Source of the DNA: Desulfobulbaceae bacterium
GTDB taxonomy: Bacteria > Desulfobacterota > Desulfobulbia > Desulfobulbales > Desulfocapsaceae
Length of the DNA stretch: 64,000 nucleotides
Direction of reading: 5' to 3'
NCBI GenBank assembly: GCA_009773475.1
Contig: WSXV01000002.1
Coordinates: 310,001 to 374,000, forward strand
In this document: one piece after another, positions 24,507 to 26,715 of the stretch
Numbering within the stretch: the first letter of the stretch is position 1
How the letters are laid out: every line of letters starts with the position of its first letter
Made by a program: the position numbers and the translations under genes
The notes under the pieces: model-generated
Told to the model about the DNA's origin: nothing
Database searches by the model: none
What the model saw: only the letters and a program-made list of their open reading frames with translations

Positions 24507-25181
24507 CTATTCTGCGTGAACCGGATCAATCAGTTTGTCCCAGTCTGCCTTGACCCTGGTGATGACCTTCTGGATCAGGGGTAACTTGTCAGAGGCGCAG
24601 ATGCCGATAAGCGCTTGTCCCTGATCCATGGAGACCCCCGGGGTAAAATAGACCGAATGGATCACGCCGGCTTCACCGGTATAATAGATGGGGGTATCAC
24701 GTTTCATCAATGACATGATGATAATCTCATCGCCAGGCTGGATGGTCAGGGCCTTTGACCCTCTTTTTTCGATACGGGACTGAATATCAAGGGAGAAGAA
24801 ATATTTAGCCCGTTCAGGTGCGGGGAAAAGGTAGAGCACTTCCTTGAGGATATTTTCTATAACCTCTTTCTTTTTCAGGGGATGCCGGATAGTCAGCAGC
24901 TTTTCTCCTGCCTCCACGAATTGGCCTTCCAGCTCTGTTCGTATGGACGAGATGGTGCCGTTGGTCTTGGCGGTTATCAGTTTGGTGTTGCGTTCTCTGG
25001 TGATCTCAAAAAGGGGGCTGCCGGGGATATGCTGCCATTCACCGCTGGTGCAATTAACCGAGCTTCCCTCTTCTACTTTAAAAGTGACTACGCCGGTATG
25101 GGACGCGCAAATTTCCGCATAATCATAAGGGTCAGCGCGATACTTGCTTAATATCGCATCAAAATCTATCTCTTCAGCCAT
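24507..25181 (-). CDS. Biotin carrier protein with biotinyl/lipoyl-like domains
   Basis: A 224-residue protein with one degenerate barrel in the first half (ASHTGVVTFKVEEGSSVNC, LEGQFVEAGEKLLTIRHP) and a C-terminal biotinyl-type domain. The acceptor is probably Lys160 in IIIMSLMKRDTPIYYTGEAG, followed by the hammerhead GVIHSVYFTPGVSMDQGQALIGI; the usual EAMKM is changed to SLMKRD. The upstream position to birA supports biotinylation. It could serve an acyl-CoA carboxylase or oxaloacetate/pyruvate carboxylase encoded elsewhere. No carboxylase is in the window. Confidence 0.75.
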   Translation of the reverse strand: MAEEIDFDAILSKYRADPYDYAEICASHTGVVTFKVEEGSSVNCTSGEWQHIPGSPLFEITRERNTKLITAKTNGTISSIRTELEGQFVEAGEKLLTIRHPLKKKEVIENILKEVLYLFPAPERAKYFFSLDIQSRIEKRGSKALTIQPGDEIIIMSLMKRDTPIYYTGEAGVIHSVYFTPGVSMDQGQALIGICASDKLPLIQKVITRVKADWDKLIDPVHAE

Positions 25182-25573
25182 CCATCAACCTTGTTTGTAG
25201 AAATATTCCAACGCTGCCGTGTCGCGGCCCTTCATGGTTTATGTTGGAAAAAATATTGGTGAAATTGTTTGTGTCGATCAAATTTTTTCAAATTTAGCCG
25301 GTCTGTCATGAAAACAATCCTATTTTATACTTAGATAACTGCCACATGGCAAGATTATTCTTTCTTCTGCCGGACGGATTTTTTTGGTCCTGCTGGGCCT
25401 GTGAGTATCATTTCGTTAGGGCTCCTTCCACCGTTTCAGGTATTATAGAAGAGTAACCTTAATGGGATGAGTGGCTTGCCATGGCCTGCAGTTTCTGCCA
25501 TTCCTTGAATGGATGAGAGGGTGTCCGGGTGGGCAAGTTGTGGATGGGTTCTTGAGCGAAAAGAGGGGATGAA
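25182..25573. other. Gene-poor spacer, 392 bp
   Basis: Divergent region between the biotin carrier gene (minus) and the selenoprotein gene (plus). It must hold both promoters. I see no convincing small gene; short open frames on both strands lack ribosome-binding sites. Confidence 0.4.
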
Positions 25574-25906
25574 ATGAAGATTGAATGGGCATATTTTCGG
25601 AAAGGCTGAGCATCCTGTATCAAGGCCCGTGCGGCTCTTGGGCAGGTTGAGATTGCAGAGGAAGTTGATGCAAAAAAAGAGGTGTTTGGTGCAGAGGCTG
25701 CCTGGGAAAGGTTGCAGGGCGCGGAAAAGGTCTGTGTCGGCAGAGGGCAGAAGGTGCATGCGTACCTGCCCGATGTGACATCAAAAGATGAGATCATGCA
25801 TGAAGTTTTGGGTCGGACCGGGAATTTGCGGGCCCCGACATTAAAAATTGGGAACAGCTATTACATTGGCTACAATGAGGCCATGTATAAGGAGTTGATG
25901 TTATGA
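25574..25906 (+). CDS. ArsC/Spx-fold selenoprotein with UxxC redox motif
   Basis: The frame starts at ATG 25574 (AGAGGGG 5 nt upstream) and reads MKIEWAYFRKG, then TGA at 25607-25609, then ASCIKARAALGQVEIAEEV and on to a normal stop at 25906, 110 residues in all. Reading TGA as selenocysteine gives Sec12-Ala-Ser-Cys15, in the position of the thioredoxin-fold CxxC. The C-terminal part (GRTGNLRAPTLKIGNSYYIGYNEAMY) is the conserved end of ArsC-like (seleno)proteins, with the cis-Pro in RAPT. A stem-loop suitable as bacterial SECIS follows the TGA. An automatic caller would give only a 74-residue fragment from GTG 25682. Its stop overlaps the next gene's start (ATGA). Probably a thiol/selenol oxidoreductase; the substrate is unknown. 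Confidence 0.85.
25607..25646 (+). promoter_or_regulatory. Candidate bacterial SECIS element
   Basis: Directly after the in-frame TGA: CCTG (25614-25617) pairs with CAGG (25643-25646), CAAG (25621-25624) with CTTG (25637-25640), and GCC (25625-25627) with GGC (25633-25635), leaving apical loop CGTGC (25628-25632) with the expected G/U. The loop starts 19 nt after TGA, within the 16-37 nt known for SelB recognition. Confidence 0.7.
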
Positions 25907-26715
25907 ACTGGAAAAGTCTGTTTGTCCCCGGAGCCAATATGAGTCCGGCGGAAGCACGGAGCTTTATGGCCGATCAGCCAAGGGATGCGTACCAGATCCT
26001 TGATGTTCGCCAGCCCTCGGAATATGAACAGGGGCATCTGCCCGGCGCCTTGCTCATGCCGGTGAAGGAGGTGAACACGAGGATGGCGGAGCTGGATCCG
26101 GAAAAGCCGCTCCTGGTGTATTGTCATTCCGGGGTGCGCAGCAAGGCCGCCTGTCAGCTGTTGCTGGCCCAGGGGTTCAAGGATGTCTATAACATGAGTG
26201 GCGGCATTATAGCCTGGCAGGGCGAGAAGGTCGGCGGTGGAGAATTGCAGGGCCTGGAGTTTTTTATGGATCGGGAATTTGGAGATGTCTTTCAGATGGC
26301 CAATGCCATGGAAGAGGGACTCCGGCAGCTCTATCTGGCCCTGGTGGACAGGGCTGCCGATGAGAGCAGCCGGAAACTTCTGGAGCGTTTAGCCGCCTTT
26401 GAAAAGGGACATAAGGCTCAGCTTGCGGCCATGTTTTCCCCGGTTGATTTTATTGATAAAGGTAAGGCCGGGGTGGTGGAGGGCGGCTTTGATCAGCAGG
26501 AGATTCTGGCCCATTTCAGTACGCAGATAGCAACGATGAAAGACATCCTGCAATTGGGGATAATGCTGGAGGCCCAGGCCCTTGATCTCTATACCCGCTT
26601 GGCGAGAAAGAGTGAAGAGGGTGCAAGCAGGGAGCTTTTTCAGTTTCTCGCCAAAGAGGAGGCCATGCATCTGAGCTATCTGACCGATGAGCTAGATAAA
26701 GTCCTGGCCGCATAG
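25903..26715 (+). CDS. Rhodanese domain fused to ferritin-like domain
   Basis: A 270-residue protein. Residues 14-110 form a rhodanese domain with active Cys74 in LLVYCHSGVRSKAACQ and the N-terminal ILDVRQPSEYEQGHLPGAL. Residues 125-270 form a rubrerythrin-like four-helix ferritin domain (FQMANAMEEGLRQLYLALVDRA, MLEAQALDLYTRLA, FLAKEEAMHLSYL) with Glu/His residues suited to a di-iron site. The start overlaps the selenoprotein stop by 4 bp, so both are co-translated. The pair probably handles sulfane sulfur or peroxide with the UxxC protein as redox partner; this is inference. Confidence 0.88.
   Translation: MNWKSLFVPGANMSPAEARSFMADQPRDAYQILDVRQPSEYEQGHLPGALLMPVKEVNTRMAELDPEKPLLVYCHSGVRSKAACQLLLAQGFKDVYNMSGGIIAWQGEKVGGGELQGLEFFMDREFGDVFQMANAMEEGLRQLYLALVDRAADESSRKLLERLAAFEKGHKAQLAAMFSPVDFIDKGKAGVVEGGFDQQEILAHFSTQIATMKDILQLGIMLEAQALDLYTRLARKSEEGASRELFQFLAKEEAMHLSYLTDELDKVLAA

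Follow-up and report, generated by a model that had tools for sequence, protein, structure and literature searches.

Does the in-frame TGA at position 25607 of the window (the whole 64,000-nucleotide stretch of DNA that was analyzed) end a reading frame, or is it decoded as selenocysteine within a gene that standard annotation would truncate? The frame in question spans positions 25574 to 25906 of the forward strand. It opens with an ATG at 25574, is translated as MKIEWAYFRKG-U-ASC at its start, carries exactly one internal TGA (25607-25609, residue 12), has a cysteine at residue 15, and closes with a TGA stop at 25904-25906. A Shine-Dalgarno-like GAGGGG sequence at 25563-25568 is located 5 nucleotides upstream of the ATG. 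The sequence-only reading of this locus had proposed a complete 110-residue gene reached by TGA read-through, with a ribosome-binding site and a Sec12-x-x-Cys15 motif, and all of these elements are present as described. It had also predicted that a standard gene call would start at the GTG at 25682, and the ORF list indeed holds only one standard ORF of at least 60 amino acids in this frame, which runs from 25682 to 25906 and encodes 74 residues. Such a call drops the N-terminal third of the protein, including the active site, whereas read-through restores the gene. We consider it highly probable (roughly 0.88) that 25574-25906 encodes a selenoprotein of the NF041106 (ArsC/Spx-related) class, an estimate that covers selenoprotein status and class but not the partner of the protein.

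The read-through protein matches the NCBIfam model NF041106 (ArsC_rel_Se_1, 'ArsC family (seleno)protein') with an E-value of 1.6e-31 and 109.1 bits (the curated cut-off is 85), and the match spans profile positions 1-107 of 107. In a six-frame search of the genome the locus scores 101.4 bits, and no other stretch matches NF041106 at E up to 0.001. Its UASC sequence conforms to the UxxC/CxxC motif used to judge membership, and all 34 aligned homologues match the model as well. When 14 control genomes were searched with NF041106, three gave matches and none of these rose above the cut-off. The 34-sequence alignment leaves out two loci on the same contigs as other members (L042 and L044, paired with L012 and L010) and two that score below the cut-off (L045 and L046). 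The latter two belong to a second, distinct ArsC/Spx-like group from the same phylum that carries a UTTC motif.

A scan of genome contigs recovered eight loci with 54-86% identity, under titles that name Desulfobulbaceae, Desulfocapsa, Desulfocapsaceae, Desulfoarculaceae or Desulfofustis. Among 395 genomes sampled from the phylum, 36 have an NF041106 match, which is above the cut-off in 28. Every one of these 28 matches contains exactly one in-frame TGA, a degree of conservation far above what chance would give, and the eight weaker matches include five with one TGA and three with none. Within the order, 165 of 257 genomes carry the family over the cut-off, and one TGA is present in 145 of the 150 order matches listed. 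The remaining five, all from one genus (G617-G621), have a cysteine codon at the Sec column (TGT in four and TGC in one).

The same pattern is seen in a collection of 76 distinct loci (84 given, of which eight were duplicates), a non-random sample that takes in the best scorers and some genomes picked from the window's family. Here the Sec column reads TGA in 71 loci, TGT in four and TGC in one. Thus, the check for Cys or Sec at this column that had been recommended earlier yields five homologues with a cysteine codon and TGA in the others. The three residues that follow the column are most often TSC (27 loci), ASC (17), VSC (11) or KSC (11), with 10 loci carrying others, and so the Ala-Ser spacer, whose standing had been left open, is one of the common forms. 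As a separate observation, the genus with cysteine codons (loci L066, L084, L087, L088 and L089) also includes a genome that keeps the TGA (G301; locus L037), which points to a Sec/Cys switch inside one genus.

Constraint on the coding sequence was assessed by comparing the window with the eight loci from the contig scan (eight pairs). For the ten codons that precede the UGA, we counted 4 nonsynonymous differences over 195 sites and 18 synonymous differences over 45 sites (pN/pS of 0.051), and the ten codons after it give a pN/pS of 0.30. These values indicate strong purifying selection on the codons 5' of the UGA, which fits translation that begins upstream of it. If the UGA instead reflected faulty sequencing or marked a pseudogene, the real gene would begin at the GTG at 25682, and in favor of this explanation is that the GTG ORF is the lone standard one of at least 60 amino acids in this frame. 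We rejected this candidate as highly improbable in light of the single TGA retained by every over-cut-off match in the phylum sample, the constraint on the upstream codons, and the genus in which cysteine codons replace the UGA.

Selenocysteine insertion also depends on the host genome, and the sequence-only reading had advised a search for selA, selB, selC and selD. We found selA (622.3 bits), selB (392.1 bits) and selD (375 bits) over their cut-offs in the same genome, together with a tRNA-Sec gene (69.1 bits, anticodon TCA). The selD gene itself contains an in-frame UGA, early in its matched stretch. Neither of the two outcomes named earlier as evidence against a selenoprotein, a genome without selB or selC and homologues that start later and lack a CxxC or UxxC motif, was encountered. 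The genome additionally contains a second tRNA-Sec-like gene (L002:1501-1598, equivalent to G000:C4:41122-41219) with a CUUCAAA anticodon loop (UCA). This gene scores 47.9 bits, just over the gathering score of 47, has mismatches in the acceptor stem, and is not called by ARAGORN. Inspection by eye places an HdrA-like frame upstream and an MvhD-like frame downstream of it, and similar DNA turns up in eight of 91 family genomes, seven of which belong to the window's genus.

Folding predicts a bSECIS-like hairpin at 25611-25649 on the forward strand, with the apical loop CGUGC at 25628-25632. The SECIS hairpin proposed earlier is therefore present, although its loop starts 18 nucleotides after the UGA and not 19. 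Published bSECIS elements, as defined in PMC13188914, have an apical loop of 3-9 nucleotides with a G in one of the first two positions, located 16-37 nucleotides after the UGA. The window hairpin falls within this definition, but 45% of its synonymous controls also pass the hairpin test described below. When compared with dinucleotide shuffles, 14 of 200 fold at least as well (z of -1.45), and the comparison with synonymous controls gives a z of -2.04. The hairpin evidence from the window sequence alone is modest and not decisive.

Homologues provide additional information on this structure. The register of the hairpin seems to shift between members, and so each sequence was tested singly against 200 synonymous recodings of itself. 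The test called for at least four paired bases beside the loop, whose length could range from 3-14 nucleotides in real and control sequences alike. It was passed by 26 of the 34 homologues, compared with 11.0 expected from the controls, figures that translate into no strict probability because the homologues are related; the mean energy z is -1.03, and the other eight homologues fail. The passing loops are 3-6 nucleotides long, even though the range allowed was wider than the published 3-9. RNAalifold predicted no pairs, and hence no consensus structure, from the 34-sequence alignment, and a search of the whole window with Rfam at gathering thresholds returned only two tRNAs.

What kind of protein is encoded? 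Pfam models yield only sub-threshold matches of the glutaredoxin type to the window protein, and the Spx regulator models TIGR01617 and PRK01655 are not among its NCBIfam matches at E up to 1. Among other members of the family, TIGR01617 does find matches (25 of 34 sequences with E no higher than 1, the best at 2.3e-9). A comparison of the profile with solved structures places Spx at the top (E of 2.6e-5, with the best five between 2.6e-5 and 4.4e-5), followed at lower ranks by YffB, a glutaredoxin and a putative arsenate reductase. The profile match to the Spx regulators (PDB 1z3e and 3l78) extends over most of the length, and the Spx CxxC motif aligns with UxxC, whereas the LRRP stretch of Spx corresponds to LRAP in the NF041106 family. 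Columns that are invariant among the 34 sequences include W5, Y7, R9, G11, residue 12, A18 and G83, as well as L85, R86, A87, P88 and G99, with Sec written as Cys in the alignment. An AlphaFold model built with this alignment as input has a mean pLDDT of 94.7, and it positions a helix (13-22) directly after Sec12, while a strand (89-92) follows the LRAP residues without a gap. We take the window protein to be an oxidoreductase, most likely with a thioredoxin-like fold. The earlier assignment to an ArsC/Spx-related selenoprotein of the UxxC type has held up, both through the NF041106 match and through the Sec machinery of the genome, but the profile comparisons indicate that 'ArsC' denotes a distant resemblance and that Spx regulators are the best solved relatives.

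These relationships bear on whether the protein might be a true reductase of arsenate or another metalloid oxyanion, in which Sec replaces the catalytic cysteine of ArsC. The family name and its distant ArsC similarity encourage this idea, given that 23 of the 34 homologues have a PF03960 (ArsC) match with E no higher than 1 (best value 0.0011), and the relevant entry of PMC13188914 terms NF041106 arsenate reductase-like. However, PF03960 gives no match to the window protein itself even at E of 1, and this protein does not reach the Pfam gathering score, and belongs to a profile whose best solved relatives are Spx proteins. Moreover, the residue directly before the LRAP proline is Ala87 in all 34 aligned sequences, where Spx has Arg. 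In ArsC, we take an Arg directly before the cis-proline, at the position that corresponds to Ala87 by way of the Spx alignment, to be catalytic, and its absence here argues against arsenate chemistry. At this locus, furthermore, both flanking genes can be typed and neither is an ars gene: the divergent upstream gene (24507-25181, reverse strand) encodes a biotin/lipoyl-carrier-like domain (PF00364, E of 1.5e-7), and the downstream gene is described below. We therefore regard it as quite unlikely that the window protein reduces arsenate.

The gene immediately downstream (25903-26715, forward strand) overlaps the selenoprotein stop through the four bases ATGA. Its 270-residue product combines a rhodanese domain (PF00581, E of 9.4e-22) with a rubrerythrin/ferritin-like domain (PF02915, E of 5.1e-9). 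The rhodanese active site of this product is Cys74 (codon TGT at 26122-26124, within VYCHSGVRS), and several relatives have TGA at this codon. In a 24-sequence alignment inspected by eye, an E, ExxH, E, ExxH pattern is evident in all but one partial sequence (L115), and we take this pattern to be that of a di-iron ferritin-like domain.

A tblastn search of up to 1.5 kb downstream of the 76 distinct loci, which were not randomly sampled, found a rhodanese-rubrerythrin gene immediately 3' with the same ATGA overlap in 15, the window included. The downstream proteins of the other overlap loci share 51-93% identity with that of the window. A pattern search had recovered such a neighbor at only 7 of 75 loci, missing the Sec forms and some of the Cys forms. 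The remaining 61 of 76 loci have other or unresolved genes in this position (BioF-like and ComM-like genes are examples recognized by eye), and two of them (L018 and L021) had less than 400 nucleotides of downstream DNA. By coordinates, selenoprotein and rhodanese matches are also side by side in two genomes (G483 and G484) and on different contigs in two others (G493 and G495).

Selenocysteine appears to extend to the second gene in some of these bacteria. Within the window's family, a rhodanese-rubrerythrin gene occurs in 68 of 93 genomes at E up to 1e-30, and 37 of the 79 family matches listed contain at least one in-frame TGA. In the Sec forms examined (11 rows, or 10 distinct genes since L085 and L107 are the same gene, plus five more), the TGA takes the place of the rhodanese active-site cysteine codon; the position in L117 was not placed by patterns. 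The hairpin test is passed by 9 of the 11 rows, with 2.1 expected for 11, or by 8 of the 10 distinct genes. At six loci (L081, L082, L085, L094, L095 and L097), both overlapping genes carry an in-frame UGA.

A mechanism can be proposed from these observations. SelB and tRNA-Sec would decode the UGA at 25607 as selenocysteine, aided by the hairpin just downstream. Sec12, just before the first helix, would most likely serve as the attacking nucleophile, and Cys15 would resolve the resulting selenenyl-sulfide, roles suggested by the UxxC motif, the natural Cys replacements, and the relation of the profile to Spx. The second cysteine is replaced by Ser in two loci (L040 with UASS and L089 with CASS), and thus the Cys15 step is not universal and part of the family may rely on one chalcogen only. 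The selenoprotein might then reduce a persulfide or disulfide on Cys74 of the rhodanese. Because the genes overlap, the rhodanese and di-iron-like protein is the most likely partner that we can name in this organism, although this is a tentative choice to which we assign somewhat less than an even chance.

A Sec-to-rhodanese relay is a plausible hypothesis, but the rhodanese cannot explain the whole family, given the 61 loci that lack it downstream. The protein may instead act as a general reductase of the glutaredoxin kind that is not specifically linked to the rhodanese, in which case the operon would be an accident of lineage. The many loci with other neighbors agree with this possibility, as does a resemblance to glutaredoxins of the YruB type (31 of the 34 members match TIGR02196 with E no higher than 1). 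It is harder to reconcile with a four-base overlap that is kept in 15 loci while downstream identity falls as low as 51%, and with the six of those loci that read Sec at both active sites. We view a general reductase as a real possibility that falls short of an even chance. The fullest form of the partner proposal is a dedicated chalcogen relay for persulfide or peroxide handling in Desulfocapsa-like bacteria, wherein a Sec-containing ArsC/Spx-like reductase would recharge a rhodanese and di-iron protein whose own catalytic position alternates between Cys and Sec. This specific version is speculative, and we consider it rather less likely than not.

The selenoprotein family is already catalogued. 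An 'Arsenate reductase-like protein, NF041106, UxxC' is tabulated in a 2026 review (PMC13188914), and PMC9312934 lists an arsenate reductase-like UxxC protein. Earlier entries include, in PMC1794560 (from 2006), an ArsC-like selenoprotein of Desulfotalea psychrophila and a protein of Desulfuromonas acetoxidans that is distantly homologous to ArsC, as well as ArsC selenoproteins in ocean data, one of which has a UxxS motif (PMC2398784). The window protein, full-length over the NF041106 cut-off and with a UxxC motif, differs in nothing essential from the entry in the review, apart from its Ala-Ser spacer and the overlap with the rhodanese-rubrerythrin gene. It thereby adds a member to the family, and its spacer is ordinary. 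The D. psychrophila protein is comparable as far as its table entry goes, being likewise ArsC-like and deltaproteobacterial.

We did not find an overlap between such a selenoprotein and a rhodanese-rubrerythrin gene in a search of a library of open-access papers, which is weak evidence of absence. Rhodanese-like selenoproteins with a UxxG motif (forms 2 and 4) are listed in PMC13188914, and relatives of the downstream gene likewise read Sec at a UxxG rhodanese active site. Compared with the description given there, the proteins considered here differ in having a rubrerythrin-like domain attached, and the window representative has Cys. The overlapping partner gene is the part of this locus worth following. 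It gives a mostly prediction-based family a concrete candidate partner, and gene pairs that carry Sec at either active site or at both, along with natural Cys versions of each, would permit a direct test of what Sec contributes to a thiol/persulfide relay.
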